DNA of 33,803 bases from a virus: positions 1-33,803 of the IMG/VR virus record IMGVR_UViG_3300023278_002279. One strand, given 5' to 3'. This document shows positions 16,039-33,803 of this stretch, in pieces (the stretch's first letter is position 1; each line of letters opens with the position of its first letter). Below the pieces are notes generated by a model. The model searched no databases. It saw only the letters and a list, made by a program, of their open reading frames with translations, and was not told the origin of the DNA. A program made the position numbers and the translations under genes.

Positions 16039-16055
16039 TTTGCATAGTTGTAATT

Positions 16056-16085: not shown

Positions 16086-16100
16086 TAAAGGACATGAGAT

Positions 16101-16547: not shown

Positions 16548-16735
16548 AAATCAACTTGTTACATCGTTACCAAAGCGCTGCTACAAATGAAGAGGCGTTG
16601 CAAGCGGGCGAACATGATTTAGATGATACCATTGCACAATATCTGATTGACAATGGCCATGCAGTTATTGTCGAAGCCCCACAAGATGAAATCATTGTAA
16701 GCAAACCAAAACGCAGACGGCGTAAGACTAGCTAA
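16544..16735 (+). CDS. Small basic-tailed protein of the connector region, 63 aa
   Basis: Starts MKINLLHRYQSAATNEEAL. An acidic middle is followed by a strongly basic C-terminus (KPKRRRRKTS), which could contact DNA or the portal. Short proteins at this position often belong to head assembly, but no family is assigned. Coupled to neighbours on both sides (ATGA and TAATG). Confidence 0.6.
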   Translation: MKINLLHRYQSAATNEEALQAGEHDLDDTIAQYLIDNGHAVIVEAPQDEIIVSKPKRRRRKTS

Positions 16736-17283
16736 TGGTCATTCGTATGACAGGTTCATTTGATTTTGAAGCGATAGATGATTTAGCAACATTCACTCAA
16801 GTAGTAAACATTATTCATGAAGAAATACTTGAGGAAGTGTTAGATGAGATTGAACCTGATTTGATAACTGAATTATCAGAAGATGCCCCGCCCGTTGCCC
16901 GTCCGATCCAATGGACTAGCGAGCGGCAAAGACGCGCTTATTTTGCAACGGATGGTTTTGGCGCTGGTATACCTTATCGAAGAACAGGCAAGCTAAGGAA
17001 AGCGTGGATTGTGGAAATACGAGGCAACGCAATCGTAGTAGAAAATCCATCAGAAGTTTCTAAATTTGTTTATGGTTCATTAGCACAAAATAGAAGCCAA
17101 GCCTTGCGATTTCAACAAAGATTCCATGTCAACACAGGATGGCAACCTGCTACCGATACTGTTAAAAAGCATCTTGACCGAGCAGGTGATTTGTATATCG
17201 AAAAGTTTGATGACAGATTAGCAGGCATGGCAAGCGGAAAAACAAAACGCCGCGCCTTCACGAAAGGGGCACGCAGAACATGA
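16735..17283 (+). CDS. Probable tail-completion / HK97 gp10-like protein, 182 aa
   Basis: The order in the operon and the segment RTGKLRKAWIVEIRGNAIVVENPSE, read in parts, resemble HK97 gp10-type and minor tail-completion proteins, in which a R-T-G-x-L-x-x-S/A-W motif is followed by a strand hairpin and a Y-x-x-x-x-x-Q-x-x segment (FVYGSLAQNRSQ here). It probably acts at the head-tail joint. N-terminal third is acidic and helical. Start is TAATG-coupled. Confidence 0.65.
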   Translation: MVIRMTGSFDFEAIDDLATFTQVVNIIHEEILEEVLDEIEPDLITELSEDAPPVARPIQWTSERQRRAYFATDGFGAGIPYRRTGKLRKAWIVEIRGNAIVVENPSEVSKFVYGSLAQNRSQALRFQQRFHVNTGWQPATDTVKKHLDRAGDLYIEKFDDRLAGMASGKTKRRAFTKGARRT

Positions 17284-17579
17284 ATAAAATGACTGGAACA
17301 TTAGTAATCACTGAAACTCAATCAAGAGATTTTTGCACATCGAAACCTTATGACTTTTACGATAAGGATAGGGATTGTTACATCACCATTACACATGAAG
17401 GTGGTGATGTGATCGGGATTAGCAAAGAAATCTTAGAAGATGCACATGAGTGGGCTTTGATACCCTTAAATGATAAAGATTATCAGTGGGGGAGATACCA
17501 CCTAGCTTGCATAGGATGGGAATACGACGATTGCCGTACCATGTTATTTAGTTTATCCTCCACCGATGCGGACGAATAA
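17280..17579 (+). CDS. Hypothetical protein in connector region, 99 aa
   Basis: Starts MNKMTGTLVITETQSRDF, overlapping the preceding stop by ATGA. Contains five cysteines and many aromatic residues, with a beta-like pattern. No match recognised, and it does not resemble usual connector proteins, so it may be a small insertion in the operon. Confidence 0.55.
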   Translation: MNKMTGTLVITETQSRDFCTSKPYDFYDKDRDCYITITHEGGDVIGISKEILEDAHEWALIPLNDKDYQWGRYHLACIGWEYDDCRTMLFSLSSTDADE

Positions 17580-17591
17580 GGCGACAGAATA

Positions 17592-18500
17592 ATGACATAC
17601 TACGCAACGCCGCTTACAACTTTAGATGATGTCATCAGACAATCGCGCTTACAAGATGCTAATGCGGCGACACCAACGGCCACAGTCCAGACAACAATTG
17701 ATAGCGCTGATGCGAACACATTATCATATCTTAAAGTTTTGCTAAATGGTGTATCTGATGCAATGCAAAAAGCGTTAAATCGTAGGCTTACACCTTACGA
17801 TGAAACCAAAACATTCTATATGCGCTATATTCGCGATGGTGGTCTAATCTATGACCGTGATTGGGCTATGCGTATCTTCACTTTGAACAATGAAGGGGGT
17901 GATGATAGCTTAGAAATCACATCACTAACGTGGGTAGGGACAGCATTTACGAGTTCTGATTATCGTTATGCACTACCGAATAGTTCACCTAATCATGAAT
18001 TGGTTTTCAATCACCAAACAACATTGGCGGCATTAGACGACTTTACCGATAGCGTGTCGATTGTCGGGACGTGGGGTTATCATGATAATTTTGCTGCGAT
18101 GTGGTTAGATAGTGGCGATACTGTGCAAGATAATCCATTGTCCGCAAGCGCGACTAGTTTAACCGTTGTTGACGCTGACGTTTTTGAAACCTACCAACTT
18201 ATTCGTATTGAGAGTGAATATCTATTCATTAGCTCATTGAATACCACAACCAATGTATTGACGGTTGAGCGCGGCAAAAATGGCAGCACCGCAGCAAGTC
18301 ATGTTACGTCAACTCAGATAGATACATTCGTTCCGATGCCAGCAGTAGCCAAAGAATGCCGACGGCTTGTTATCAGAGCATGGTTTTTACGTAATCCAAT
18401 TGGGAATGTCGTAGTCAGTAATGAACAAATCAAAGAACTCGTTGAAGGTGAAATGAATTTATCGTCAATTCCACGTCTAATGAGGACATATTCTATCTAA
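17592..18500 (+). CDS. Head-tail connector (adaptor) protein, 302 aa
   Basis: The N-terminal helices with LNRRLTPYDETKTFYMRY and the C-terminal VAKECRRLVIRAWFLRN fit the gp6-like adaptor architecture, in which a helical bundle binds the portal. In between sits a beta insertion (about residues 175-245, LSASATSLTVVDADVFETY ... LTVERGKNGS), a small barrel also seen as an insert in other phage connectors. AAGGCGAC precedes the start. TAATG overlap with the next gene. Confidence 0.65.
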   Translation: MTYYATPLTTLDDVIRQSRLQDANAATPTATVQTTIDSADANTLSYLKVLLNGVSDAMQKALNRRLTPYDETKTFYMRYIRDGGLIYDRDWAMRIFTLNNEGGDDSLEITSLTWVGTAFTSSDYRYALPNSSPNHELVFNHQTTLAALDDFTDSVSIVGTWGYHDNFAAMWLDSGDTVQDNPLSASATSLTVVDADVFETYQLIRIESEYLFISSLNTTTNVLTVERGKNGSTAASHVTSTQIDTFVPMPAVAKECRRLVIRAWFLRNPIGNVVVSNEQIKELVEGEMNLSSIPRLMRTYSI

Positions 18501-19009
18501 TGTTACAAGAACAAAAAGAACGTATCATTCAAATTATTGAAAATATGGGAACGGCGCAAGGCTTACCGTCAGGCGTAGCTATTGAATCTTTGGCACACGG
18601 TGTAATCAGCCTTGAAAATGTGACCTTGCCAGCAGTTTTAAGTGTCCCTGCAAACATTACCTATAGGCGACAAAGTGGTGACCAGTTCCTTGTAACGTGC
18701 CAATGGAATCTATATTTATATATTCGTCAGGTAGGCACGGGGAATCAGCCGCAAGCAGAATTTGAACCGCTTGCCTTATTAGATATTTTTGCAAGTGAAT
18801 TTTTAACTAGACCCCAATTACAATTTAGCGATAACGGATTAACAGGGATTGTCGAAAATGCAGAGTTTAACAATCCGCAAAATTTAGCCCGTCCGATTAC
18901 CTATCCACCTACCGATAGTAGAGGGGCGCGGTATTGGGGTGCATTATTTACATTAACAGTCACGCAACGTCAAACACACACGCTTAATGAATCAGGAGCA
19001 TTAACATGA
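18500..19009 (+). CDS. Probable tail terminator / minor tail protein, 169 aa
   Basis: Position between adaptor and tail tube, a length near 170 residues, and an N-terminal helix followed by alternating strands (FLVTCQWNLYLYIRQV) and a late helix (LALLDIFASEFL) fit tail-terminator-type proteins that cap the tube and join it to the head. No diagnostic residue motif is available, so this is by position and overall pattern. Overlaps the tube gene by ATGA. Confidence 0.6.
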   Translation: MLQEQKERIIQIIENMGTAQGLPSGVAIESLAHGVISLENVTLPAVLSVPANITYRRQSGDQFLVTCQWNLYLYIRQVGTGNQPQAEFEPLALLDIFASEFLTRPQLQFSDNGLTGIVENAEFNNPQNLARPITYPPTDSRGARYWGALFTLTVTQRQTHTLNESGALT

Positions 19010-19866
19010 GTAAAGATTTTCTATATGGTGTTTTCTATGTGCAATACGCATTTCGAGACAATTCAGGCTATCCTATGGGTAGTACGATTGCCCCCGATGC
19101 GGTTGCAGACGGCACGACTACCCATGCCGTATTGATGACTAACCCAGTCGCATTTACACCCCCTGCACCAACTTTTGAAACCGCTATCGATTTTGGTGGT
19201 CAGAAGATTTTAGCGCAAAAAGATTTGGGCGTGTCAGGGTTCGGGACGGGTACTCTAACATTATCTGAATTTGATGACTCATTCCACACGCACGTAACAG
19301 GCGGGACAGTCGATAGCGCACAAGTTAGCGGTTGGCGCTCGGTTGGTTTGAATGTTAATCAGGTAACTAGCCCTTCATTTGTACTTATCGTATCAACAAA
19401 AGCATTCGATACAGTCGCGAGTGCGGATAAATGGTCACATTGGATTTTCCCCAATTGCCAGATTAAAGTTACACCTCCGGGCGCTTCACAATCAGGCGGT
19501 GTTAATCCAACGCCTCTTGAATATACAATTGTACCGAATACCTCAATTCGTGATGCAAGCGGCGAATTATTCAGTGGTATGACAATGACCTTGCAAGATA
19601 ACGCCGATATTCTTATTCGCAAACAAACGGGCAACCCACTAGGGCTTACAACCTATGTAGAAGCGGCCACCCCCGCGAACACTTTCATAACAGGCTATCG
19701 CCCTGTCACAGCAACAGTCGATGATAGCGATAAAATATTCACAGCCGATGGCTTGGTTATTGCAGCTTCATCACATAATGTAACGACTGGCGTTGTCGTA
19801 ACAACCAGCATTACACAAAGCCAGAAAGTGGTATCTTTGTACGAAACCGTTTATACAGCTATCTAA
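19006..19866 (+). CDS. Major tail (tube) protein, 286 aa
   Basis: It lies between the terminator-type protein and the chaperone pair, as major tail proteins do. The sequence is strand-rich, with Gly/Thr/Ser-rich loops and the pattern GFGTGTLTLSEFDDSFH and ELFSGMTMTLQDNADI typical of tube beta sandwiches. Its 286 residues leave room for a C-terminal surface domain beyond the core fold. It would polymerise around the tape measure to form the tail tube. Confidence 0.7.
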   Translation: MSKDFLYGVFYVQYAFRDNSGYPMGSTIAPDAVADGTTTHAVLMTNPVAFTPPAPTFETAIDFGGQKILAQKDLGVSGFGTGTLTLSEFDDSFHTHVTGGTVDSAQVSGWRSVGLNVNQVTSPSFVLIVSTKAFDTVASADKWSHWIFPNCQIKVTPPGASQSGGVNPTPLEYTIVPNTSIRDASGELFSGMTMTLQDNADILIRKQTGNPLGLTTYVEAATPANTFITGYRPVTATVDDSDKIFTADGLVIAASSHNVTTGVVVTTSITQSQKVVSLYETVYTAI

Positions 19867-19876
19867 GGAGACCTAA

Positions 19877-20116
19877 ATGATTAAGAATGACCGCATAGGA
19901 ACATTTGAAGAATGGCCTAAAGTCACCATATCAGGTGCTAAATACATACGCCCCTGCTCCACGATTGTTTTGGGACATGGCTATTTTGCAGTATTAGATA
20001 ATGCAAATAGCGCTGATGATATTGAAGAATTGAAAGGCATTGTTGAAAAGGCAATGGCAAAAGACAACTTAAAACTAAGGGTGGAAAATGTACAAACCAA
20101 AGACAAAAAATCATAG
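19877..20116 (+). CDS. Hypothetical protein between tube and chaperone, 79 aa
   Basis: Starts MIKNDRIGTFEEWPKVTISG after AAGGAG. The phrase IGTFEEWPKV recalls IGTFEMLEGVPF in the next gene's product, so the two N-termini may be related. A helix follows (IEELKGIVEKAMAKDN). Possibly an extra assembly factor. Its 3' end overlaps the next gene by 29 bases. Confidence 0.6.
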   Translation: MIKNDRIGTFEEWPKVTISGAKYIRPCSTIVLGHGYFAVLDNANSADDIEELKGIVEKAMAKDNLKLRVENVQTKDKKS

Positions 20117-20510
20117 TACCGAAATAGGGACGTTTGAAATGTTGGAAGGCGTTCCTTTTCGTGTTAATTTGCTAAACAGAGTTGTTGAGGGTAATGGGGC
20201 GGATGGTACAAGCCTATCCACGTCATTCATTATTATAGAAGGCTATATGTATGATTTTATAGCCAATGGTGATAGTGATATAGGCGAATATGTCAAGACC
20301 CGCGCAGGATTAAGTTTGCAAGAACGTTTTGATTTGTTTGGTGTGGCGGTGGATTTTGAACGCAATGAAATTATTTATGAAGCATACAAGGCAACCCGTG
20401 ATGATGCTCATAAAAAAGAAGCTATACCAGATGATGATACAGGCGAAAAAAAAGACGTATCACAGAACTCGAAAACACCATCAAAAGCACCATCAAAGGA
20501 AAAAATTTAA
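20088..20510 (+). CDS. Tail assembly chaperone, zero-frame product (G-like), 140 aa
   Basis: Its place between tube and tape-measure genes is that of phage lambda G and G-T. Near its 3' end the codons GAA AAA AAA contain the slippery heptamer A-AAA-AAA (20447-20453). A -1 shift there leads, without any stop, into the reading frame of the 20537 ORF; the fused product would be 122 plus 102 residues, 224 in all. In the zero frame the tail after the slip site is low-complexity and basic (NSKTPSKAPSKEKI), as expected for a dispensable end. These proteins hold the tape measure and tube subunits during assembly. Confidence 0.78.
   Translation: MYKPKTKNHSTEIGTFEMLEGVPFRVNLLNRVVEGNGADGTSLSTSFIIIEGYMYDFIANGDSDIGEYVKTRAGLSLQERFDLFGVAVDFERNEIIYEAYKATRDDAHKKEAIPDDDTGEKKDVSQNSKTPSKAPSKEKI
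20447..20453 (+). promoter_or_regulatory. Predicted -1 ribosomal frameshift site
   Basis: A-AAA-AAA in the correct phase (third base of GAA, then AAA AAA), within a run of eight A, followed by G. After the slip, codons AGA CGT ATC and onward stay open through the ATG at 20537 and end at 20761. No clear downstream stem was worked out. Confidence 0.8.
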
Positions 20511-20536
20511 GCCGAAAGTTAAAAGTAGGCGATAAC

Positions 20537-20761
20537 ATGATAGCAGTCGCGCCGCCTCAATATGACACGTTAGTCAGTTGGGATATTGAATTGTTAGACA
20601 GGGCGGTTCGCTATTGGCAAATATCAGGGTCGCCATTCCCTCCCAGCATTGATGAAATTCTATATCGTGATATGACTTGGGATGATGCTTGTTATGAGTA
20701 TCGGTATGCAATAGATTTCTATGAAGACTATCAGAAACGAAAAAGCGCAGGGTTAATCTAA
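20537..20761 (+). CDS. Tail assembly chaperone, -1 frame extension (T-like domain)
   Basis: Read alone from ATG 20537 it is 74 residues with only a weak AGGCG before it. Its frame is open back to the slippery site at 20447, so it is best seen as the C-terminal part of a G-T fusion (frame entry at 20453). The sequence (TWDDACYEYRYAIDFYEDY) is helical and acidic with aromatic residues, as in chaperone C-terminal domains that bind the tape measure. Independent initiation at 20537 remains possible. Confidence 0.75.
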   Translation: MIAVAPPQYDTLVSWDIELLDRAVRYWQISGSPFPPSIDEILYRDMTWDDACYEYRYAIDFYEDYQKRKSAGLI

Positions 20762-20762
20762 T

Positions 20763-20996
20763 ATGCTAATGATAATATCACGTTTTTATCAAAGTTTATC
20801 GGCACTAACAATATTGGGTACTTTTATAGCAATGATAAACAGCCCTGATCGTTTTTTTGTGTTCATTGTTGGCTTCATGAGTTCGTTAATATTGCTAACG
20901 GTAGCAATGGTAGTGAGTGAATTATCAGACATGAAAATACAATCAGAACTGCAAATCAGGTTCGTGAAACGGTTGGCTAAAAAACGCAATGGTTGA
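20763..20996 (+). CDS. Small two-helix membrane protein, 77 aa
   Basis: Two hydrophobic stretches (SALTILGTFIAMI, about residues 13-26, and FFVFIVGFMSSLILLTVAMV, about 31-50) followed by a charged, basic tail (RFVKRLAKKRNG). A membrane protein between the chaperone pair and the tape measure is out of place for tail assembly. It could be a holin-like or superinfection-type accessory protein, but neither is shown. The start codon follows the preceding stop by one base, and the 3' end overlaps the tape-measure start. Confidence 0.6.
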   Translation: MLMIISRFYQSLSALTILGTFIAMINSPDRFFVFIVGFMSSLILLTVAMVVSELSDMKIQSELQIRFVKRLAKKRNG

Positions 20997-23415
20997 TGAA
21001 ACTCGCTCCGTAGAGCTTGCAATTGATAATAAAAGAGCGCTTAAAGAACTAGCGGAACTTCGCAAAAGTCAAGAAGACCTAGCGAAGTCAGCTGCTAAGG
21101 GTGATAAGGCATTTGATGAAGCCGCCAAAAGTATCAACAAATTGCAAAAGCAAGAACGCGATTTAATAAAAACACAGCGTGTGTTAGATGATAGTTTCGA
21201 TAAAGGAACAAAATCGCTTAACGAACAAGAACGTGCGGCGCGTGATTTATCCGATGAATTAGATAGATTAGACCAACAAAAAAGCAAGACCGCGCAGCAA
21301 GTCGGTTTAGCCGGTGATGTTGGTAGTGCAGGACGTACAATCGGCGGTGCTGTTGGCGCGTTAGGTGGGGATGTTGGCGGGTCGATTGAAAGTGCCATTA
21401 GTGCATTATCTGAATTGCCTGATACATTGGAAGCCTTACCATTATTGAAAGATTCATTTTCTGCATTACCAGCGATTACAACAAAGGTCACAGATAGCAT
21501 TGGATTAGGCGGTTTCGCTGGTAGCTTACAATCTGCTATACCCGCATTAGGTGGGGCAGGCGCGGCGGTTGCGGCATTGGCTTTGCCAGTTATCGCAGTT
21601 ACGGCAGTAGTCGGTGGGCTAATTGCTATATTTAGCGCATTAGCAAAACAAAGCGAGGAAGTTAGAGAAGTCACTCGCTTACAATTTGAAGCCCAACAAG
21701 ACGCTGAAAAGTTAATCCGTGAAGGTGCTACGAGTACCGAATTTTTAGAAGCAAGAGCCGCAGTGGAGCGTGATTTAGCGGACGCGGAAAGCAAATTAGC
21801 ACAAGCCCAAGAGGATCGGGCTAATGCAGGGTCTTTTGCAGCAGCGCAAGAATACGAAGAACTTATTGCTGAAAGTGAATCAACAATACGTGAAACAACG
21901 TTACGTCTAGGAGAATATAACGAGCTAGTTTTCGACAGTGGGTTAGCCGCTAATGATACTGCATTAGCTGAAGAAGATTTGGCAAAAGAACGCGCAGAAA
22001 ATGCAGAGGCTTTGAATAATGAGATAGCTGCAACCGAACAACGAGCAACCGCCGCCGCTAGACAAGAATTAGCACTAGGGCAGCAAATAGCAGATGCCAC
22101 TACAGATAGATTACAGGCGCAAGCGGACGCTCAAGAATTAGCAACATTAGAAGCAGAATTTGCAGCTGAAGACCAAGAGAAACAAGAGCAAAAGCATCGT
22201 GATAATTTAGATAATATTGCAAGTGCGGGGCGCGATAACTTAGAACAATTACAAGCTGGCTTCGGTGAGCTTGCAAAAAAACGAGCCGAATCACTTGCCG
22301 ATGTTGATGCAAAGGGGAACGAAAAATTATCCTCATTGCGAAATGATTTCTTTGAAAGTCAATTAGAATCTACGCAAGACTTCCAGCGCGAAACTGCTAA
22401 GATAGAAACCGATACCGCTAAAAAGCGCACCAAACTATTAGAGGATTTGAACGCTAGATTATCCGACGCGGCGCGTGATAATAACGTGATTGCATTCCTT
22501 GAGGCACAGCGCGAAGGCAATAAGAAATTAGCCGATGATGCGATAAACGCCCAAGATGCCGAAAAGCAACGAGTAGAAGAATTTGCTAGACAGCGCGAAA
22601 ATGAGCGCCAAATATTCCTAGAGAAACAAGCTGAAACATTATCAGGAATACAGACTGAAAAAGTTGCGATTGTCGAAGCGTTCAATGAACGACGCATAGC
22701 ACTAGCCCAACAAATTGAAACTGAAAAAGCCGCTATTGAGGAACGGTTAGTGCAAGAAAGAACACGGTTTGCAGAACAGGAAGCGCGGGAAGCTGAACAA
22801 GCCGAAAGAGCAAGGCGACGGGCTGAAATTAGAAATCGTCAAGAACAGCGTGACTTCAATGAACGTTTGGCTGCATTACGTCAAGAGCAAGATATAAAGC
22901 GTCAAATAAACCGTGATGAGTTAGCAGCATTAGCCGCGTTACAATCTCAGATAGCACAATTACAAGCCGCCGCAAGCCGGCCAGTAGGGGCAAGCAGTAG
23001 AGGGCGTAATAGGTTGGGGCAACGTGGGGCTAGTCGTAGCGCGGGGCGTGGTGCAAGTGGCGCTAGTCGGTCTTCACAGCGTAGACCAAATTCGGGAAGC
23101 GCTGGCCGAGCTTTTCATGAAGGTGGTATTATTGATTTTGCAGGTAGTCAGAGTGAAGGTTTTGCACTTGTCAAAGCTGGCGAGATTGTAATAAATCCTG
23201 ATATGCTTGCTAAAAACAATAGCGCTGGATTACCGTTATCAATATCAGATAGTTTAAGCAATAATAAACCAGATGTTAATATCACATTCTCGCCTAATTT
23301 TTCACCTGTAATTGGAGACATTGCCAGCGTTAGCGAAGTTGAAAACGCATTCAGGGCTAATAATCAAGTGCTTATGGACAATTTAGTTAGGACAATTGAG
23401 GTTGCAACGGCATGA
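20989..23415 (+). CDS. Tail tape measure protein, 808 aa
   Basis: Long, helical and Ala/Glu/Gln-rich. Coiled coil covers about residues 5-105, a Gly/Ala hydrophobic segment with ALALPVIAVTAVVGGLIAI lies near 190-220, then a second coiled coil of about 430 residues. After it comes a Gly/Ser/Arg-rich linker (near residues 660-705) and a conserved-looking end with EGGIIDFAGS and ALVKAGEIVINP, seen at the ends of many tape measures. The protein fills the tube and sets its length; at about 0.15 nm per residue this suggests a tail near 120 nm. Start ATG overlaps the preceding gene by 8 bases. Confidence 0.92.
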   Translation: MVDETRSVELAIDNKRALKELAELRKSQEDLAKSAAKGDKAFDEAAKSINKLQKQERDLIKTQRVLDDSFDKGTKSLNEQERAARDLSDELDRLDQQKSKTAQQVGLAGDVGSAGRTIGGAVGALGGDVGGSIESAISALSELPDTLEALPLLKDSFSALPAITTKVTDSIGLGGFAGSLQSAIPALGGAGAAVAALALPVIAVTAVVGGLIAIFSALAKQSEEVREVTRLQFEAQQDAEKLIREGATSTEFLEARAAVERDLADAESKLAQAQEDRANAGSFAAAQEYEELIAESESTIRETTLRLGEYNELVFDSGLAANDTALAEEDLAKERAENAEALNNEIAATEQRATAAARQELALGQQIADATTDRLQAQADAQELATLEAEFAAEDQEKQEQKHRDNLDNIASAGRDNLEQLQAGFGELAKKRAESLADVDAKGNEKLSSLRNDFFESQLESTQDFQRETAKIETDTAKKRTKLLEDLNARLSDAARDNNVIAFLEAQREGNKKLADDAINAQDAEKQRVEEFARQRENERQIFLEKQAETLSGIQTEKVAIVEAFNERRIALAQQIETEKAAIEERLVQERTRFAEQEAREAEQAERARRRAEIRNRQEQRDFNERLAALRQEQDIKRQINRDELAALAALQSQIAQLQAAASRPVGASSRGRNRLGQRGASRSAGRGASGASRSSQRRPNSGSAGRAFHEGGIIDFAGSQSEGFALVKAGEIVINPDMLAKNNSAGLPLSISDSLSNNKPDVNITFSPNFSPVIGDIASVSEVENAFRANNQVLMDNLVRTIEVATA

Positions 23416-23837
23416 TAGATTTTGATTTAGATACTATCCCCATAGGGACGGTAACTCACGATGATAACGTTTTGTATTTTCATGCTGATGGCATGTCCGC
23501 CTCGATTATGTATTATAATAAAAAAATGGTTGAATCAATGCGCCCCTTTTATCCTCATTATGTAGCTGAACGGGATGGTGATAGGATTATCTATTTTAAG
23601 GATGTCGTGCCAACAAATGTAAAAATAGAAGTGCTGTTTAGGAATGATACCCTAAAAGATACTCTAAGGTTTTACATTCAAAACTTTCGACAATCTTTTG
23701 GAGACTTTATTTATCCCCACGATTTACCCATAGCGGAGTGTGATTATTCAATTAGAAAACGCATTGCAATGGCTACAATGATTATACTTAGCAAGGTATA
23801 TGTTTTTTTGGAATCATTAGAGTATCGGTATGAGTAG
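23412..23837 (+). CDS. Tail-tip region protein, 141 aa
   Basis: Directly follows the tape measure with ATGA overlap, the usual place of distal-tail components. Starts MIDFDLDTIPIGTVTHDD; strands dominate, and the C-terminal part has a hydrophobic stretch (AMATMIILSKVYVFLESL) that is likely core, not membrane. No family match by eye, so only the tail-tip assignment by position is offered. Confidence 0.6.
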   Translation: MIDFDLDTIPIGTVTHDDNVLYFHADGMSASIMYYNKKMVESMRPFYPHYVAERDGDRIIYFKDVVPTNVKIEVLFRNDTLKDTLRFYIQNFRQSFGDFIYPHDLPIAECDYSIRKRIAMATMIILSKVYVFLESLEYRYE

Positions 23838-24354
23838 ATTAATTCGTTTGTGGAATGGCACAATTAGCGAGAATGATTTACTCAATACATCGTCTTATCT
23901 AGTGACCAGCTATACACGTCAAACAGATATGGCAGCAGCTACACAATGGCAAGCCTCGCAACCTGAATTTGGGGTAACGCAAGAATTAGCCGCAGGTTTA
24001 GAAGTTGGCAGCGGCAAATTCTATGGCGGTGTGTCGGGTATTATTCAATTTTTCTATCTTACAGAAGACATGAGGCAATTCATAGACGATAACATTATGA
24101 GCAACGCGCCAATTGCGGCGGTCACGGCTTATTTACATCATCCAATTGATGGCTTCCAAGTTTATCAAGGCGAATTAGTTACCCCTTTTGCTGCAAATGC
24201 CGAAACAAGCTATACACGATTTAGTGATGCGATTTATTCAAACAATCAATATCTATTCCGACGGGGTACGAAGATAAGTGATAGCTATCTTATTGATGAA
24301 TCTAGTAATTTCATTGTCGATGAAGACGGAAACAAAATCATAACAAAGGTTTGA
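23830..24354 (+). CDS. Tail-tip region protein, 174 aa
   Basis: Overlaps the previous gene by 8 bases. Beta-rich (SGKFYGGVSGIIQFFYL, AVTAYLHHPIDGFQVYQGEL) with Asp/Ser loops; the C-terminus holds the near-duplicate phrases YLIDESSNF and IVDEDGNKI, a short strand-turn repeat as often found in phage tail proteins. Function beyond tail tip is not assigned. Confidence 0.6.
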   Translation: MSRLIRLWNGTISENDLLNTSSYLVTSYTRQTDMAAATQWQASQPEFGVTQELAAGLEVGSGKFYGGVSGIIQFFYLTEDMRQFIDDNIMSNAPIAAVTAYLHHPIDGFQVYQGELVTPFAANAETSYTRFSDAIYSNNQYLFRRGTKISDSYLIDESSNFIVDEDGNKIITKV

Positions 24355-24355
24355 T

Positions 24356-24787
24356 ATGGCAAATAAAAATATTAACGCGTTTGACGAGAAGACTACTATC
24401 ACTGATGGGGATTTTGTGGTCTTATGGGATACAGCAGGGGCGGACACAAACAAGCAAGACGTGGCAACGTTACGCCGTCCAGAAATTCGGTCAGTAGTAG
24501 GAAGCGGCACTCAGTCGGGGGCAGGGGCAAGTGATTTACATATTGCATTAGAACACGCAAGCGCTACGAATTACACGATTACGGGCGCACCAACCATAGG
24601 CGATACTTTATCAGTTATAGTTGATACCACAGCCGCGCACACCATCGTTTTAAGCGGGTCTGTGACATTTGACGGTAGCAATAAAACCGCAAACCTAGCA
24701 ACGGCTCTCGATAGCTTTATCGCAGTCGCTAGAACTGCAACTCGTTGGGATATTGTAAGCAATAATGGCGTAACATTAAGTGCATAG
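24356..24787 (+). CDS. Virion protein with decoration-type beta module, 143 aa
   Basis: Residues about 65-140 (PTIGDTLSVIVDTTAAHTIVL, read in parts, to ATRWDIVSNNG) align with the C-terminal module of the 15168 protein, including the G-x-x-T-F-D-G-x-x-x-T-A core and the A-T-R-W end. The N-terminal 50 residues (NINAFDEKTTITDGDFVVLWDTAG) resemble the short segment that precedes such modules in fibre proteins. A small tail appendage or adhesion subunit is likely. A terminator-type hairpin follows the stop. Confidence 0.65.
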   Translation: MANKNINAFDEKTTITDGDFVVLWDTAGADTNKQDVATLRRPEIRSVVGSGTQSGAGASDLHIALEHASATNYTITGAPTIGDTLSVIVDTTAAHTIVLSGSVTFDGSNKTANLATALDSFIAVARTATRWDIVSNNGVTLSA

Positions 24788-24810
24788 CTAGGTATCATCA
24801 AGTAAACTAG

Positions 24811-24831
24811 ACCGCCTTACGGCGGTTTTTT
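24811..24831 (+). terminator. Intrinsic terminator
   Basis: ACCGCC-TTAC-GGCGGT (24811-24826) is a perfect 6-base-pair hairpin, and its final T begins a run of six T (24826-24831). It lies just ahead of a large tail gene with no visible promoter, so it may attenuate, not block, transcription. Confidence 0.8.
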
Positions 24832-24837
24832 GATTGG

Positions 24838-27800
24838 ATAAAGCTAATAGCTACTACTAGTATATCAGCAGGCGACTTATCAAACCTGCGCTCTGACCAA
24901 TACATTAGCGATATAGCGCTACACATAACGCCGCTTACTGCTGTTCAAACAGGAACAATCACCGCTGTTCCTGCCCTGTCGCCATTCGTAGATATTACTT
25001 GGGATGGTAGCACGACGGGAATAAGTGTCGGGCAATTTGTTAAAATTGTTTCGGGTTCAACGTTAAAAACCTATGGGATTATTCGCAAAGCGCCAGTAAG
25101 CACCACGCTATATATCAGCACTACCCCATTAGGGTCACCGGGTTCAGCCACGCGCATTGAAACCGCTATAGCTGTAAATGATACGGTCACGGTTTATAAC
25201 CATCGTCCGCTATGGAATAGCTTCTCTCGCATAAGCGAAGGTTCGTTCTTTAAGCAATGGGATATCACCTATACAAACCAGAACTCGCAACCTCCACCAG
25301 TAATGAATACGGGCGCATGGCAAGCGGTCAAGTTGGCAACGGGCGTAAGCACGCACACATTTACATTACCGCGTTCAGGCGTGAATACTTCATTTGCTTT
25401 TGGTTCAGCAACCATTACAAGCTATGCGTGGACATTACCGAGTGGCGTAACTTATGCTACAGGATTTAGCACGACTGATGATGTGATAAATGTTGTAGCC
25501 ACCGCAGGTTATCACCAAGTATCTTGTCTCCTGACAGATAGCAATAGCGCCACACATACAGCCTATGTGTGGTTATTCGTTTCTGATGGTAGCAGTACAG
25601 GATTAAGTTTATCAGAGCGTTATGGCGTAACAATTGATAGCGACAGTCAAACGCGCAAAGGGCGCGAGATTAGTTTTACAGTGACAGGTGATAATTTACA
25701 AGATGCCATTTACCCTAGCGCTGGTATTATGCTTCGAGAATTTCCAATACATGGCGGGACAACTCTAACTAATGGTGTGTCAATTGATACATTCATTGGC
25801 TATATACATCCTGACGGCTTAAATTTTTCGCACGATGGGAACATAGGAAAAGCGACGGTTCGCGCAGTATCCCCTTTTTTGTATGCTGAAAAAATAGGAC
25901 AGCCATCACAAGCATTAGAGGAAGTGTCAAGCCCATCACATTGGGCAGAATGCACTTCTGTCTTGAGCAATCCACGCGGTATCTTATATTATGCTATGAA
26001 GTGGCATTGCTTAAACTTTTTGGACATGCACGATTTGGACGCGACACAAACCACACCTCGCAAGCATTTCACGCAGTACAATACCAATAGCTTGTCTGCG
26101 GCTATGGAGGTATCAGCAGCTACTATCGCTGGCAATATTGGAAGCGCAAGCGATGGCACGACCATGCTAAAAGATAACCCGCTTTATATGGATAACACAG
26201 ACAGGAACGCATTAGCGGTTATTCTGACATGGCAAGAACAAGATTTGAAACCATCGCTTAATTATTTGATGCGATTCGGTAGCACGTTTGCAGAATCACG
26301 TACAGGAGCTTTTGCTTATGATGGTACGACAGATAGTGCGTGGCTCGCGGGTAAACGCTGGCATCAAGGTATTGGCAAAACTGAGTTATCAAATTTTACT
26401 GTCACAGTTGCGGACGGTGTGACAAGAATAAAAGAAATGTCAGGACATTATCTAGCTGAACAAAACGCAGACATTCAAGAAATTACAATCGACTTAAACG
26501 CTAATCAAGATGTGATAGACCCTGCGCTTATGCTATGGAATAGATTAAATGTATCCTCAACATTTGACCCTAACGGCGTAGGATTTAGTAATGAAAGAAT
26601 GCTACCTACTCAAGTAAACCGAACATGGGAATTAACAAACAATGGATGGATGAAACGTCTATCGTTAGGCTTGCAACCTGAAACATTCGGGCAACCCGGT
26701 GAAGAAATTCCAATTTCATCCGCAAATACTTGGTTATCAGGTGGTTGGTCATCTTCATTACCTGTCCAATTTGAACCATTCCAAGATGATAGCGCATTAG
26801 GAAGTCTGGGGATTATCGTCTTGAATGATGATAATGGTAAGCTGGCAATTTGTTACAATATGTTTGCATCAACTTTAGCTTATACGGATTTATCTTCATT
26901 CGTGGATAGTGAAACAGTACACGACTTCGCTATCGATTGGAATAGCGCCTATTTTACAGGCAATGATGCGACGGCAAAACTTGCGGCTTATGCTCTGACT
27001 AGTTCAGGCTCTACGCTTAAAGTGTGGCGGTTTAACGATATTCTCAATAGTGCAATTGCCACCGAATTGACAACATATACGATGGCAGATAGCTCATGTA
27101 CTAGCGAGGCAAGGATTGAGTGTTCCGAGACCACACCGACCTATGTCGGGGTTGGATGGCATGACCAAACAGGGGTAGAGTTTGGATATTCTGATGATGG
27201 TGGAGCAACTTGGCAAGCAAAGGCAAATGTAGGTAACGCGGTCTCCGATACTGCTAACGATAACGCACCGCTTGGCATGGCAATTGATGGAAACCTGACT
27301 TTGATTAGCGCTCCTGATAGTACGCCCGAATATGGTGTCTATAAAGCGACTACCGTAGGCGGTGCATTTAGTGAAGTCACGAATACAGAACGCACAGACG
27401 CACCGCAACCGATGATTAAGATTGAACCTGCAGGAACAGTGGCTTATGCTTCATCTGTTGGCAGCGCTGGAAACGATACGGTAACATTTGATGCTGGTGG
27501 GTTAGCTTATTCATTATTGGCTGGACAATCAGGGACAGTTCAATCAGGTGGTAATCCTAACAATCGTTTACGCCATGCTGCTCTAACAGGTGGTTTATAT
27601 ATTGGTATAACAGTTGATTTTGGTTCGCCAATTTCAATAACAAATGTCATCTTTGATAGAAAAAGTGTAACAGACGTTGCCGATGTTTCTATAACCGTTG
27701 ATTCCGTATTATTTATGGCCGCCAATTTTGCAGGTGATTCGCTTGGTGTTTGGGTAAATCATGATTTAGACGGCGAGGGCGCAGCGACTTTCCCAAAGTC

Positions 27801-28266
27801 GGGGCAAGTTTGGGATATTAAAATACAAAAAGGCGGCGGTACATCAGATAGTAGCTTAGACAATATCCAATTTGTAGGCGCACCTGCTGGTACGACCTCC
27901 GAATTATTCAGTGTTGACCCGATTACAGGAAGTGCGGTATGGACGGACATCACACCTGCTAGCGCTGAAGCGCCAGAACGCCCGCACGATTTAGCAATCG
28001 ATTTAATTGATATTCTAGTAATTGACACCGTATCTGATAATAGCAAAAATTGGTATACATCTATTGACGGCGGTTCAAACTGGAGTACAAGTGAATCATC
28101 TAGCAATAAACGCGCCTTCATAAATGCAGGTGATACCTTATTAGAAGGTGGTAACGCAGAAGTCAAGATTAGTTATGATGCAGGTTCATCATTTACTGAT
28201 TTTACAGGTAATTTAGCGAGCATTTGGGGTACTGTTGGTGTGATTAAGCGGATAATGTCACTATGA
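24838..28266 (+). CDS. Large tail protein (tip or appendage), non-canonical or lost start codon
   Basis: The frame is open from 24811 to the stop at 28266. The first ATG is at 25303, with no ribosome-binding site, yet the 160-odd codons before it read as normal phage protein (ATA-AAG-CTA-ATA from 24838, then SISAGDLSNLRSDQ ... FFKQWDITYTNQN). No ATG, GTG or TTG occurs in frame in that part. I place the 5' end at the ATA at 24838, which would give 1142 residues, as the most start-like N-terminus (I/M-KLIATTSISAG); ATA at 24847 is an alternative. After the N-terminal part comes a PKD-like segment (ITSYAWTLPSG) and a long middle. The C-terminal half has three Asp-box motifs S-x-D-x-G (27190, 28060 and 28171), typical of sialidase-like propellers. 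Confidence 0.75.
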   Translation: MKLIATTSISAGDLSNLRSDQYISDIALHITPLTAVQTGTITAVPALSPFVDITWDGSTTGISVGQFVKIVSGSTLKTYGIIRKAPVSTTLYISTTPLGSPGSATRIETAIAVNDTVTVYNHRPLWNSFSRISEGSFFKQWDITYTNQNSQPPPVMNTGAWQAVKLATGVSTHTFTLPRSGVNTSFAFGSATITSYAWTLPSGVTYATGFSTTDDVINVVATAGYHQVSCLLTDSNSATHTAYVWLFVSDGSSTGLSLSERYGVTIDSDSQTRKGREISFTVTGDNLQDAIYPSAGIMLREFPIHGGTTLTNGVSIDTFIGYIHPDGLNFSHDGNIGKATVRAVSPFLYAEKIGQPSQALEEVSSPSHWAECTSVLSNPRGILYYAMKWHCLNFLDMHDLDATQTTPRKHFTQYNTNSLSAAMEVSAATIAGNIGSASDGTTMLKDNPLYMDNTDRNALAVILTWQEQDLKPSLNYLMRFGSTFAESRTGAFAYDGTTDSAWLAGKRWHQGIGKTELSNFTVTVADGVTRIKEMSGHYLAEQNADIQEITIDLNANQDVIDPALMLWNRLNVSSTFDPNGVGFSNERMLPTQVNRTWELTNNGWMKRLSLGLQPETFGQPGEEIPISSANTWLSGGWSSSLPVQFEPFQDDSALGSLGIIVLNDDNGKLAICYNMFASTLAYTDLSSFVDSETVHDFAIDWNSAYFTGNDATAKLAAYALTSSGSTLKVWRFNDILNSAIATELTTYTMADSSCTSEARIECSETTPTYVGVGWHDQTGVEFGYSDDGGATWQAKANVGNAVSDTANDNAPLGMAIDGNLTLISAPDSTPEYGVYKATTVGGAFSEVTNTERTDAPQPMIKIEPAGTVAYASSVGSAGNDTVTFDAGGLAYSLLAGQSGTVQSGGNPNNRLRHAALTGGLYIGITVDFGSPISITNVIFDRKSVTDVADVSITVDSVLFMAANFAGDSLGVWVNHDLDGEGAATFPKSGQVWDIKIQKGGGTSDSSLDNIQFVGAPAGTTSELFSVDPITGSAVWTDITPASAEAPERPHDLAIDLIDILVIDTVSDNSKNWYTSIDGGSNWSTSESSSNKRAFINAGDTLLEGGNAEVKISYDAGSSFTDFTGNLASIWGTVGVIKRIMSL

Positions 28267-29531
28267 GCAAAATTAATATACCAACTGACGTTATTGAACA
28301 AGGGATGAATGCTGTTCAAAAGCGGATAGGTAACAATATACGCAATAAACGGTCTGTATTTTTGGGTAATCCGTTAAATGTAGGCTCTATTTATGCAGAT
28401 ACCAATGAGTCACTTGTTTTTGTACATGGTTTAGGCAACGAGCCAGACTCAATTACTACTATTTCGTCATCTGGCATACCAAAAGACAAGCTAATTTATA
28501 AGCAACCTATGCTTATAGAGCAATTAGCCAATGGTAGCTGGCGATTTTATAGCGTAGACATAGAAGCTGATACACAATTCAGCGCTGGCATCACTGCGAT
28601 ACAAGACCAAACGCCTATTAATTTATCTCAATTAGATTATGGCACTTTGCACCCTAGCACAGGCTTGGTTTTGTTAGCAAAAGGTGCTATATATGGCACT
28701 GATTATGTAGTGGATACCCTCACAGGCGATTTTGCTACAGGAACGGTTCAAGATACCAGCGCAGCGAATATCGTAGTACCGACTACGAACAACCGCGCCA
28801 TTGGTGTATTGATTCAAGTCACGCCGTCAACAGGCGTTCTAAGTTATAAACAATCGTCAGAATTTAGCGCCACAATTAGCTTACCATCAGCTTATGCCAG
28901 CGATTTATTGCCATTACCTGATAGCGGCGCGTATAGGATGGGCTATGCAAAATTAGTTAAGGGCATAACCCAATTTAATTATTCACATCTGTGGGTAGTA
29001 CCTGAATTTTTGAGCAAGGGGGATTTGTGGCCTAACCCAATAGCAGAAGAAATAGAAATACCATCAGGTAGACAGCAGCACGCTATTGAACAAACACTCA
29101 GCGTGACTGGTGTGCTAACCGTAGCTGGCGAGTATTGGTTAGACAATTATCTCATTATTGAGGACGGCGGTCAGCTAATTATTGAAGACGGGGGTCGGAT
29201 GGTTATTCGCCCTCATATCACTGACCAACCATCATTAATTGCAGCTTCAAGAGAGGTGTCTGCAAATTACACTGTGACGTTAAGTGATGGTAGTATCATG
29301 GTAGACACGAGTGCAGGGTCTGATATAACGATCACATTATTACCAGTCGCTAGTTTTGCGCCGCGTTCAGTGCGTATCGGTAAAGCAAACGCAAGCGGAG
29401 GGAATGTGATTATAGATGGTGATGGAAGCGAAACTATCAACGGAAACTTAACCGAAACACTAACGGCACAATGGAGTAATGCAATCATCGTAGCTTACAA
29501 TACCGCATCTGTAGATTATGCAATAGGATAA
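28263..29531 (+). CDS. Tail appendage / fibre protein, 422 aa
   Basis: ATGA-coupled to the large tail protein. The N-terminal part contains the phrase GIPKDKLIYKQPMLIEQ and a following beta-rich body, a layout I associate with tail proteins adjacent to PKD-containing ones. Around residues 285-315 lies a short beta-solenoid-like repeat (LIIEDGGQLIIEDGGRMVI). The last 90 residues (ANYTVTLSDGSIMVDTS onward) resemble the shared decoration-type module. Likely virion surface, function in adsorption inferred. Confidence 0.65.
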   Translation: MSKINIPTDVIEQGMNAVQKRIGNNIRNKRSVFLGNPLNVGSIYADTNESLVFVHGLGNEPDSITTISSSGIPKDKLIYKQPMLIEQLANGSWRFYSVDIEADTQFSAGITAIQDQTPINLSQLDYGTLHPSTGLVLLAKGAIYGTDYVVDTLTGDFATGTVQDTSAANIVVPTTNNRAIGVLIQVTPSTGVLSYKQSSEFSATISLPSAYASDLLPLPDSGAYRMGYAKLVKGITQFNYSHLWVVPEFLSKGDLWPNPIAEEIEIPSGRQQHAIEQTLSVTGVLTVAGEYWLDNYLIIEDGGQLIIEDGGRMVIRPHITDQPSLIAASREVSANYTVTLSDGSIMVDTSAGSDITITLLPVASFAPRSVRIGKANASGGNVIIDGDGSETINGNLTETLTAQWSNAIIVAYNTASVDYAIG

Positions 29532-29533
29532 TT

Positions 29534-30985
29534 ATGAGCTTTTATGAAGATGTAAACATAGCTAACCCTATAGCAGCATTTGGGGGTGTAAATGTTATTA
29601 ATGAAACGCCAAAAGTCCAAATCAAAGCAACCTATGGATTTATGGATAATGTAGAATCGTTTGTATCTACGACTGCGGGGGGAACGGTGGATACAACGCC
29701 CGCCGGTTTTGAATGTTCAACAGGTACAACAGTAGGCGGTTTTGCTGTCATTCGTTCTAAACGTCCGATCATTTACCGTCCCGGTCAAGGTTTGTTAGGC
29801 AGAATATCTACAATATTCGGCACACCTGCTGCACTTTCCACACAACAAGCAGGCATGTTTTCAGTTCAAGACAGTCTGTCATTCGGTTATGATGGTTTGG
29901 ATTTTGGGATATTGCATAAATTCGGCGGTGCGGTTGAAATCCAACGTTTAACAGTGACAGGCGCAGCAGGGGGTAGTGAGAATGCAACCGTGACAGTTAA
30001 TGGCACGGGTTATACCGTACCTTTGACATCTGGAACAGTACAACATAATGCCTATGAGATTAATGTCTCACTGAATAGTCAAATAGCTGATTGGACATTT
30101 ACTCAAAATGACGATACGGTTGAAGGGCTTGCACAAATTGATTTGGATTTGGTGGGCGCGTTTACTTTTTCGTCAGCAACCGCAACAGGCACTTGGGCAG
30201 AACTCCAAGCGGGCAATGTTTCAACTGAAAACTGGACACCGCAAGCTAATTGGGATGCACAACCTTATAGCGGTTTCGACCCTGCGTTAAATAACGTATA
30301 CCAAATTGATACACAATTTTTAGGCTATGGTAATCCTGCTTTTTATATTGCCAATGCTACAACCAGAGCTTTTGAAAAAGTGCATACAGTAAAATATCTA
30401 AATACCACAACCGCAGAAACTAATCTTAAAAATCCATCACTTAACGTTGGATGGGTAGCGGCTTCATTAGGTAGCACGACAGATATAACCATGTATGGGG
30501 GTAGTGCAGCATTATTCACACAAGGCAAAGACGAATTACTGACAACTCCAAAATCAATCAGTAATACAAAAACAATCGGCACAAGCGAATTAAGTATATT
30601 GACAATTCGAGATCGCTATATATTTGGTGGCGCACAATCAAAAGCTGAAATAATACCAAACGCTCTAACAGTCGGTAATGAAGGCAATAAGATAGCAATT
30701 ATTCGCCTCGTTAAAAATGCGGTTTTAGGTAATGAGACGAATTATCAATATGTTGATGAGCAATTTTCAGTAGCAGAATTTGATACTGCTGGGACTACTG
30801 TTAGCAATGGCGCTGAATTAGGAATTATACAGGTAGCTCCCGGAGGTGGAATTGAATTAAATTTACGAGAGTTTCTTGGTGATTCTGCACTTGAACCCGG
30901 CGACACCTTGACAATTTCTGCCATATTCTTATCAGGCGCGGCAGCAGACATAGGTGTTAGTATCAACTGGCTACCAAACATTTAG
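29534..30985 (+). CDS. Virion structural protein with RPGQG-type domain, 483 aa
   Basis: The N-terminal half contains IIYRPGQGLLGRIS and later SFGYDGLDFGILHKFGG and IQRLTVTGAAGG. This order (Y-R-P-G-Q-G, then F-G-Y-x-G, then a G-G-x-x-E-I-x-x-L strand) recurs in structural proteins of several large-genome and environmental phages and viruses. The rest is beta-rich with many Asn/Thr. No enzyme motif. Starts after AGGATAATT. Confidence 0.6.
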   Translation: MSFYEDVNIANPIAAFGGVNVINETPKVQIKATYGFMDNVESFVSTTAGGTVDTTPAGFECSTGTTVGGFAVIRSKRPIIYRPGQGLLGRISTIFGTPAALSTQQAGMFSVQDSLSFGYDGLDFGILHKFGGAVEIQRLTVTGAAGGSENATVTVNGTGYTVPLTSGTVQHNAYEINVSLNSQIADWTFTQNDDTVEGLAQIDLDLVGAFTFSSATATGTWAELQAGNVSTENWTPQANWDAQPYSGFDPALNNVYQIDTQFLGYGNPAFYIANATTRAFEKVHTVKYLNTTTAETNLKNPSLNVGWVAASLGSTTDITMYGGSAALFTQGKDELLTTPKSISNTKTIGTSELSILTIRDRYIFGGAQSKAEIIPNALTVGNEGNKIAIIRLVKNAVLGNETNYQYVDEQFSVAEFDTAGTTVSNGAELGIIQVAPGGGIELNLREFLGDSALEPGDTLTISAIFLSGAAADIGVSINWLPNI

Positions 30986-30993
30986 GATGAATT

Positions 30994-31272
30994 ATGAGTT
31001 ATAGAGTTATCAACAGAAAAAACCAAATTGTTCTTGAAAACGCGACATTAGAAGAGGCTCGTAAAGAAGTAATTGATTTGATTAATAAACGCCAAGATAG
31101 ACAAGCGACTAAGGATAATAAAAATAGACAAGTTCGCGCAACAATAACCCCATTTTTTAATTATGATGAGGACGGCGGACTTCTTGAGGAATTACGTATT
31201 ATAAATCATGAAGATATTGACAAACGTGTGATATTCGCGGCAATTAAACACGATAGCGTTTTAGAGGAATAA
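30994..31272 (+). CDS. Hypothetical helical protein among fibre genes, 92 aa
   Basis: Starts MSYRVINRKNQIVLENAT. A basic helical middle (EEARKEVIDLINKRQDRQA) is followed by a strand and acidic end. It does not look like a virion surface protein and may be a small chaperone for the neighbouring fibres. Good ribosome-binding site (GGATG). No family recognised. Confidence 0.6.
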   Translation: MSYRVINRKNQIVLENATLEEARKEVIDLINKRQDRQATKDNKNRQVRATITPFFNYDEDGGLLEELRIINHEDIDKRVIFAAIKHDSVLEE

Positions 31273-31275
31273 GAA

Positions 31276-33285
31276 ATGACAAAAGCCCCGCTTAATATTA
31301 CAGAACAAAGTACAGTCCCTACCACAGACATTGTAACTAATGATATATATTTAGATGATGGTACGAACACGTCATCGGCGCAACCGGGTTGGAGGCGTTA
31401 CAATGGGTCATTTTGGGAAGATATAAGCGCCGCAGCAGGGGCAAGTTTGCCAGTTGTGGATACAACGGGCATAGCAAAAGGAAGCGCAGATGCTACCAAA
31501 ATCGCACGTTTAGAAGTCGACGGGCTAACAACTGCTACGACTCGCGTGCTAACAGTCCAAGACGTTGATGGCACAATATTAGTTACGGGCGGTAGTGATG
31601 TTGTCGTTGCTGATGGTGGTACGGGTAGAAGTTCACATACTGCATACGCTGTGATTACAGGCGGTACGACTAGCACCGCAGCACAGCAAAGTATCTCCAG
31701 CGTTGGCACTAGTGGTCAAGTGCTGACTAGTAATGGTGCAGGCGCGTTACCTACTTTCCAAGCTGCTGCGGGTGGAGGAGGTGATGTCACAAAAGTAGGT
31801 ACACCTGTCGATAATCAAGTTGGTGTGTGGACTGGTGATGGCACGCTGGAAGGCGATACTGCACTCACATTTGACGATGCTACCGACATTTTAGCAATAG
31901 GCGCAAGCGGGGGACTAAGTTTTGGCGCGATAGCTATTCTTAATGACACCGCAGGAGCTATGGAATTATCGAATATTGATTCTATTGATGCCACTACAAA
32001 AGCAACATTCCAAGCGGCAATAACTAATCTAGCGAATTTAGTAGAAGTTGGAACAATTGCAGCAGGCGTTTGGAACGGGACAGATATAGCGGTTGCTGAT
32101 GGTGGTACGGGTGCAAGCGATGCAGCAACAGCACGAACAAATTTAGGGCTTGCTATTGGTACTGATGTACAAGCACAGGAACTAAATCTAACAAACGCAA
32201 CTGAATTGACTATCGCGACTGGCGTGATTACACGTACTCAAACATACCACACAGTCGATACAGAAGCCGATGCTTCTTCTGACGTACTAGCTACAATTAA
32301 TGGTGGGACTCAAGGCGATATTTTAGTAATACAAGCTGCAAATGATGCCCGCACAATCCAAATTAACAATTCAGGTAATATTCGCACATACTTAGCAGGT
32401 ACAATAAATTTAGATGAGGATCACAAAGTTGCGTCTTTCATTTATGATGGGACGAACTGGTTAGAGATTAGCAGTATTGACGCTGTAGTAGCTAGTGCAA
32501 CATTTCTTAGTGAAGGTGTTGTGGAATTAGCGACTGCTGCTGAAACTCTGACAGGAACGGATAATGCGAGAGTTCCGCCAGTGTCATCTATCGTGTCCGC
32601 TATACAAGGCAACGCTTATACATATGCTGCTGACGCACAAGCCGATGATACATATAAAATATTTCTAACACCTGCGCTGACGGATTATGTAGATGGTGAT
32701 ATATATCAATTCAAAGCAAACACGGCGAACACGGGTGCAGCCACACTTAATATCGATTCATTAGGCGCAATATCTATACTAAAACGTCATGACCAAGCTC
32801 TAGCGGATAATGACATTGAAGCAGGTGCAATGGTCGCTTTGATGTATGATGGCACAAATTTCCAAATGATGTCTCAATTAGGGAATACACCGGGCGGTGG
32901 TGCATCAACACACGTCGAAAATCTAGACGATATAGGCTCTACATCAACCACGTCTACAACAGGTGTTGATGTGGCAAACTCATCTTTTTCTTATACTGTC
33001 GTTGGTGGGAATCTATTAGTTACTTTTCATAATACACAAAGTAGTGGCAGTACCGGAAACCCGCCACAGGTGCGAATTGTGGTGGGAGCAACAAATGGCG
33101 CGTGGCAAGAAACAGCACAAGGCGCGACTGCTTTAACATCGACAGTGACTGAAGCATTTACAGGCATTTCGGCAGGCGCAGCAACAATCAAATTGCAGAT
33201 AAAATCAACAACAGGGGTAAGCGTAACGATAGATACGTTATCGGCCACCTCTACACATGTGATGGCAAGCGTAGTAGATGGATAA
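31276..33285 (+). CDS. Tail fibre protein, 669 aa
   Basis: Two copies of the VADGGTG fibre motif, encoded by an identical 21-base sequence at 31606-31626 and 32092-32112, each followed by the usual A-x-T-x-L-G or TA-rich stretch (ASDAATARTNLGLA). Near residue 145 lies the SSVGTSGQVLTSNGAG phrase common in phage fibres. A middle part (about residues 325-400, HTVDTEADAS to NWLEI) contains another decoration-type module. An adaptor-like WRRYNGSFWEDI is at the N-terminus. Expected to trimerise and contact the host. Starts after GAGGA. Confidence 0.8.
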   Translation: MTKAPLNITEQSTVPTTDIVTNDIYLDDGTNTSSAQPGWRRYNGSFWEDISAAAGASLPVVDTTGIAKGSADATKIARLEVDGLTTATTRVLTVQDVDGTILVTGGSDVVVADGGTGRSSHTAYAVITGGTTSTAAQQSISSVGTSGQVLTSNGAGALPTFQAAAGGGGDVTKVGTPVDNQVGVWTGDGTLEGDTALTFDDATDILAIGASGGLSFGAIAILNDTAGAMELSNIDSIDATTKATFQAAITNLANLVEVGTIAAGVWNGTDIAVADGGTGASDAATARTNLGLAIGTDVQAQELNLTNATELTIATGVITRTQTYHTVDTEADASSDVLATINGGTQGDILVIQAANDARTIQINNSGNIRTYLAGTINLDEDHKVASFIYDGTNWLEISSIDAVVASATFLSEGVVELATAAETLTGTDNARVPPVSSIVSAIQGNAYTYAADAQADDTYKIFLTPALTDYVDGDIYQFKANTANTGAATLNIDSLGAISILKRHDQALADNDIEAGAMVALMYDGTNFQMMSQLGNTPGGGASTHVENLDDIGSTSTTSTTGVDVANSSFSYTVVGGNLLVTFHNTQSSGSTGNPPQVRIVVGATNGAWQETAQGATALTSTVTEAFTGISAGAATIKLQIKSTTGVSVTIDTLSATSTHVMASVVDG

Positions 33286-33288
33286 ATC

Positions 33289-33681
33289 ATGAAACGATTT
33301 GATAGGACAAGCAACGCACAAAAATTGTACGAAGAAATAGAGGCAATACAATCGGGTGTGGTTATCACGTTTACACGAGATTATATAGAATACGATGAGA
33401 CACCATTCTCAATAGAAATTCAAAACACCATTGATGCTGCAATTGTGGCGCACAATGAATCTGATTTGACATCTGAACAGCAAGAGAAAATAACCGATAG
33501 CAATTCATTTGATGATTTGCTGGCAACGGCACAAGCAGGTATTGACCAAATAGTAAACGATAAAATTACAGTTAATAACGCTGCTATTCCTGCTGATATT
33601 AAAATAGTGTTGAATAATCTACTAAATCGTCAAACTAAGGAAATCAAAGCATTAGCGGGCATAATCAGGAAGCTATCGTGA
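33289..33681 (+). CDS. Hypothetical protein after the fibre gene, 130 aa
   Basis: Starts MKRFDRTSNAQKLYEEIEA. Predominantly helical and acidic in its second half (IDQIVNDKITVNNAAIP, ADIKIVLNNLLNRQTKEIK). Helical proteins just downstream of fibres can be fibre-assembly chaperones, but no family is recognised. Its stop overlaps the GTG of the following small membrane peptide. Confidence 0.6.
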   Translation: MKRFDRTSNAQKLYEEIEAIQSGVVITFTRDYIEYDETPFSIEIQNTIDAAIVAHNESDLTSEQQEKITDSNSFDDLLATAQAGIDQIVNDKITVNNAAIPADIKIVLNNLLNRQTKEIKALAGIIRKLS

Positions 33682-33767
33682 AACGCACAATCGCCAAAAT
33701 ATGCGGTATTCTGCCATTTGCAGCTATACCGCTTGCGATTGTACTATATCAATGGCTATATCTATAA
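33678..33767 (+). CDS. 29-residue single-pass membrane peptide
   Basis: GTG at 33678 overlaps the preceding stop (GTGA) and opens a 29-codon frame to TAA at 33765-33767. After a basic N-terminus (MKRTIAK) nearly all residues are hydrophobic (ICGILPFAAIPLAIVLYQW), one membrane span. Position at the end of the structural operon, where lysis genes usually follow, suggests a holin-type or accessory lysis peptide, but length alone cannot prove it is made. Confidence 0.45.
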   Translation: MKRTIAKICGILPFAAIPLAIVLYQWLYL

Positions 33768-33803
33768 ATTGATTGTTGAATACAGTTTGCGTAGGCGTTG
33801 ACC

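Follow-up and report, generated by a model that had tools for sequence, protein, structure and literature searches.

The window analyzed here, a 33803-base virus record, contains on its plus strand a frame (frame 1) that is open from 24811 to 28266 (1151 codons), starting after a TAG at 24808-24810, in which the first in-frame ATG, GTG or TTG is the ATG at 25303, 164 codons in. Based on the genome's own codon use, the probability of 164 codons without any of these three codons was estimated at 5e-4. This is the only gene of the window with such a long start-less stretch; the other plus-strand open frames of at least 90 codons have their first start at most 33 codons after the preceding stop. 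The features of the region are as follows.

24356 to 24787, plus strand: gene of 143 amino acids located after the tape-measure region and before the hub gene, occupying the place of the relatives' coupled gene (weak tail match in PHROGs)
24809 to 24831, plus strand: terminator-like hairpin with a six-T run (24826-24831), directly upstream of the ribosome-binding site
24836 to 24841, plus strand: GGATAA Shine-Dalgarno, 5 nt before ATA 24847 (hexamer recurs at other starts; only Shine-Dalgarno-like motif in place)
24845 to 24849, plus strand: TAATA, equal except for its last base to the TAATG stop-start junction of many relatives
24847 to 24849, plus strand: ATA at the initiation site, aligned with the canonical starts of all relatives
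24847 to 25302, plus strand: conserved beta-rich N-terminal domain of 152 codons, lost if ATG 25303 is used (alignment A5; AlphaFold2 models)
24847 to 28266, plus strand: gene of a tail hub-like protein, 1139 codons, first codon ATA (29 distinct homologues start here with ATG or GTG; intact open frame)
25303 to 25305, plus strand: ATG, the first in-frame canonical codon, rejected as start (no Shine-Dalgarno; no homologue starts there)
25340 to 25600, plus strand: PKD-like insertion domain of the hub protein, with approximate limits (residues ~165-250)

The stretch upstream of ATG 25303 is coding, based on the codon scores of frame 1 (log-odds of +0.03 per codon compared to -0.56 and -0.67 for the other two frames) and on homologues that align over all of it from residue 1. 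The initial annotation of a large tail gene with some 150 N-terminal codons that lack a canonical start was borne out by open frame, codon use and homologues alike. Its figure of about 160 coding codons counted from 24811 held for the presence of the coding stretch and not for its limit: coding starts at 24847, so that 152 codons precede 25303, and most of the hairpin, together with the ribosome-binding site, falls within 24811-24846. From 24847 the gene runs for 1139 codons without a stop and with in-frame codon use. ATA codons are found at 24838, 24847 and 24862.

The position of the start was examined by comparison with homologues. By simple searches, one distant relative was found, Rctr41k_44 (APU89255.1) of an enrichment-culture virus (Virus Rctr41k, KX853513.1), whose ATG falls on the residue that corresponds to 24847. 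Twelve IMG/VR contigs were retrieved with a DNA pattern built on the common motif RKAPxxxT(L/F)YI; 11 of them were significantly homologous by tblastn, and the twelfth (L012), though truncated, has the motif and its surroundings in common. A profile search yielded 28 loci, some of them on contigs already found, and an Anaerolinea MAG. After removal of duplicates, 29 distinct homologues with a readable start were available. All 29 carry a canonical start codon (26 ATG and 3 GTG) at the equivalent of 24847-24849, to within a few residues. A start at the position corresponding to 25303, which would have refuted the initial annotation, was looked for and seen in none of them. The window reads IATTSISAGDLSNLRSD where relatives read MARAITADELVKLRSD. 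For the best loci, tblastn E values were 1e-12 to 2e-16 with query residues 1-247, and homology to the Rctr41k_44-like tail protein family extends over the N-terminal domain with its (I)RKAP motif (tblastn, alignment A5). In this family the canonical start lies ~82-87 residues before the motif, compared to 78 residues for the window ATA in the gapped alignment.

Rctr41k_44 and the uncultivated IMG/VR relatives resemble the window gene in their homology over the N-terminal ~600 residues, in their placement after the tape measure region and in starting at the same residue, and differ from it in their canonical ATG or GTG. ATA stands at the start in none of the 29 relatives, all of which are remote (only 20-31% identical over the aligned region), and no conservation of the unusual codon is seen. 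Scans of proteins from viral contigs and of genome contigs yielded no near-identical sister genome, and a narrower DNA pattern gave a single match (L044) that was a chance one. A 14 kb contig among the relatives (L003, IMGVR_UViG_3300020045_005545) bears two divergent copies of the tail gene, at 8850 (plus strand) and 13812 (minus strand), so that the contig has two tail modules or is a chimeric assembly.

The product of the gene looks like a tail hub of the gp44/gp27/VgrG-like fold with a PKD insertion, as judged from structural models. An AlphaFold2 model of residues 1-630 was of moderate confidence (pLDDT 67.7, pTM 0.71). By Foldseek it matched 7b5h, 3d37 and 3cdd with E values of 1e-11 to 1e-9 and a probability of 1.00. 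Its matches comprise hub proteins of the Mu gp44-like, VgrG and Milano baseplate types. The best fold matches of this region are to the Mu gp44-like/gp27/VgrG tail hub fold (PDB 3d37, 3cdd, 7b5h and 8fqc), to which the window protein is ~10-12% identical in sequence and from which it differs by its PKD insertion. When the N-terminal domain was modelled alone, strands 31-91 and 113-118 were scored best, and the N-terminal 162 residues alone gave weak barrel matches only. The PKD-like part noted earlier downstream of the start-less stretch was recovered as a PKD domain at residues ~165-250, and ATG 25303 lies at the border between this domain and the beta-rich one. The loci L002-L043, located next to the tape measure gene, encode a family of tail hub-like proteins of ~960-1150 aa that carry a PKD insertion. 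Members of this family occur in 29 or more distinct phages or proviruses, all uncultivated and one of them in an Anaerolinea MAG; PKD models aside, any given other Pfam or PHROGs family is matched by at most one member.

Of the near-cognate codons in the start-less stretch (n=29), only the ATA at 24847 has a Shine-Dalgarno-like motif in place. The hexamer GGATAA lies 1-7 nt before 5 of the 40 other starts of the phage compared to 0.24 expected, and these other Shine-Dalgarno uses are at 15161, 16534, 28250, 29526 and 33280 of the window. Its duplex with the anti-Shine-Dalgarno was calculated at -3.1 kcal/mol, which places it in the weaker third, with only 12 of 40 genes as weak or weaker. The RNA accessibility of the site is ordinary, with an opening cost of 8.4 kcal/mol compared to a mean of 8.8 for the other starts and a random value of 11.0. 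Homology and the ribosome-binding site, independent of each other, indicate the same codon and place the start site of the tail gene at 24847.

The initial annotation had proposed an ATA start at either 24838 or 24847, and only the latter stands, by homologues and Shine-Dalgarno. ATA 24838 is located inside GGATAA, the hairpin stem contains its sole Shine-Dalgarno candidate, and opening it would cost 19.2 kcal/mol, more than at any of the 40 other starts. Recoding of ATA as methionine was also rejected, with internal ATA codons aligned with M in 4% of cells (ATC 5%, ATT 2%) and with I, V or L in 55%. In the read-through RNA, the T run and some of GGATAA are able to base-pair with 24793-24802 (z -2.4), a pairing that could tie initiation to the open state of the hairpin foot.

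Elsewhere in the window, the fused protease/major head-like gene at 12876-15155 has a listed TTG start without a Shine-Dalgarno, and ATG 12912, preceded by GGAG, is its likelier start. A DNA methyltransferase with an N-terminal ParB-like domain is encoded at 5943-7334, just before the terminase genes.

The region upstream of the tail gene is organized differently from that of the relatives. In 27 of the 29 relatives, the upstream frame stops at -1 to +8 nt from the start, mostly as TAATG or a four-base overlap. This junction type is, by analogy to RNA phage GA, where coupling at a stop-start junction is established (PMC9955659), an arrangement of translational coupling. The relatives overlap their upstream gene in this manner and so have no intervening hairpin, while in the window 59-60 nt separate the start from the end of the previous gene (24787), the stop-start arrangement is absent, and a hairpin intervenes. 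This structure, which the initial annotation had described as a terminator hairpin, is terminator-like with its six T, and is the strongest such site in 14000-33803 when G-C pairs and T run are combined. The TAATA at 24845-24849 may be a remnant of a TAATG junction that was separated by insertion. By blastp and hhalign, no similarity of 23412-23837, 23830-24354 or 24356-24787 to the relatives' coupled upstream gene was detected, and searches revealed no relatives of 24356-24787 or 23830-24354. A promoter between hairpin and start was rejected, 15 nt being too little space, and a promoter-like match at 24770-24798 was at chance level.

The explanation we favor for the ATA, at a probability of roughly 0.55, is weak but genuine AUA initiation at 24847 from an independent Shine-Dalgarno site. 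The most serious competitor, which we consider possible and clearly less probable, is a sequence or assembly error, whereby a single miscalled consensus base would hide a canonical start codon of the true phage at 24847. The codon is read from one contig only, all relatives are canonical at exactly this position, the remainder of the initiation region is ordinary for the genome, and an initial scan of the kind used here favors oddities, errors among them. By contrast, ~40 other genes have open frames and canonical starts, there is no sign of poor quality elsewhere, and an error would have to strike one of very few bases. An indel near the six-T run, raised at the outset, was not needed to account for the frame.

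An unlikely alternative is that a genuine start-codon mutation occurred recently in the sampled virus or provirus and left a weak or defective copy. The absence of ATA from the relatives is consistent with such an event, and ATG-to-ATA start variants do arise spontaneously in bacteria (PMC12864459); against it, the gene and the window have no other decay, and the ATA is a consensus reading from a population that has to produce tails. Translation from ATG 25303 with an untranslated upstream stretch is highly improbable: this codon is the first canonical one in frame, but it has no Shine-Dalgarno (duplex energy 0), as had been remarked, its use would remove the conserved beta-rich domain that homologues retain, and the codons upstream of it are used as coding. 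Equally improbable is that ribosomes reach the frame by shifting or reading through from the upstream gene, or through the out-of-frame TTG at 24830 or 24834 followed by a shift; although the upstream gene ends only ~60 nt before and a hairpin and T run lie between, the block at TAG 24808-24810 that had been noticed is reinforced by TAG 24787 and TAA 24803-24805, both TTG frames reach stops within a few codons, and the homologues have independent starts.

According to the favored explanation of weak AUA initiation, the GGAUAA Shine-Dalgarno would place the 30S subunit, the initiator tRNA would read AUA 24847 with a third-position mismatch, and translation would proceed at a reduced rate under IF3 control to yield a tail hub or tail tip protein with a PKD insertion. 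In the relatives, the gene is translationally coupled to the preceding gene by a 1-4 nt overlap; since the window phage has an extra gene and the terminator-like hairpin directly upstream, its start site must work alone. Tail hubs such as those of the gp27 type are usually needed in few copies per particle. A weak start would be tolerable for a product required at such low copy number per virion, and initiation at a few per cent of the normal level could be enough. More tentatively, and in our judgment doubtful, the dosage of an essential hub may be kept low by the independent weak AUA site after the inserted gene and terminator broke the ancestral coupling, possibly with sensitivity to host IF3 and to the pairing between Shine-Dalgarno and hairpin foot.

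AUA initiation of this type has precedents. AUA is the start codon of infC, ccpN and citZ in S. aureus, where the AUA/AUU sites measured had ~10% of AUG activity, with up to 30% for ccpN (PMC13009471). Like the window gene, these three have an AUA start with a Shine-Dalgarno upstream, from which reduced initiation is expected; they differ in being supported by ribosome profiling (PMC13009471), whereas the window provides one case with a modest Shine-Dalgarno. For infC and ccpN, an extended Shine-Dalgarno pairing has been described that is absent at the window ATA, and the ccpN start is conserved between S. aureus and B. subtilis (PMC13009471). A spontaneous ATG-to-ATA variant of rpoS reduced the protein at most five-fold, with at least one fifth kept (PMC12864459). 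The Streptomyces sigR GTC and infC AUU/AUC starts are similarly non-canonical and mis-placed by gene callers, but encode regulatory proteins, with IF3 control shown, compared to a virion structural gene in the window (PMC5472188). The UAAUG coat-lysis junction of RNA phage GA is of the stop-start type found in relatives of the window gene; its UAAUA variant, measured without a Shine-Dalgarno, gave 0.4% of upstream reading compared to 24.7% for UAAUG (PMC9955659). Coupling in phage GA occurs without a Shine-Dalgarno (PMC9955659), and the TAATA of the window is not the end of any long upstream frame. The low UAAUA value counts against use of the AUA, as do the lack of ATA among the relatives, the modest Shine-Dalgarno and the single metagenome contig. 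No published phage case of an AUA-initiated virion structural gene was found in the literature searched.

Callers restricted to ATG, GTG and TTG would annotate this protein 152 residues short, as had been anticipated for its N-terminal part, and the same error may hide further cases. If the ATA is a sequence error, the true N-terminus is still fixed for a tail protein family of which Pfam and PHROGs cover little apart from the PKD domain. AUA starts are already known in bacteria, and the window gene would add another case; if real, it would be an AUA-initiated virion structural gene, and would mean that tail hub dosage can be held low by the choice of start codon.
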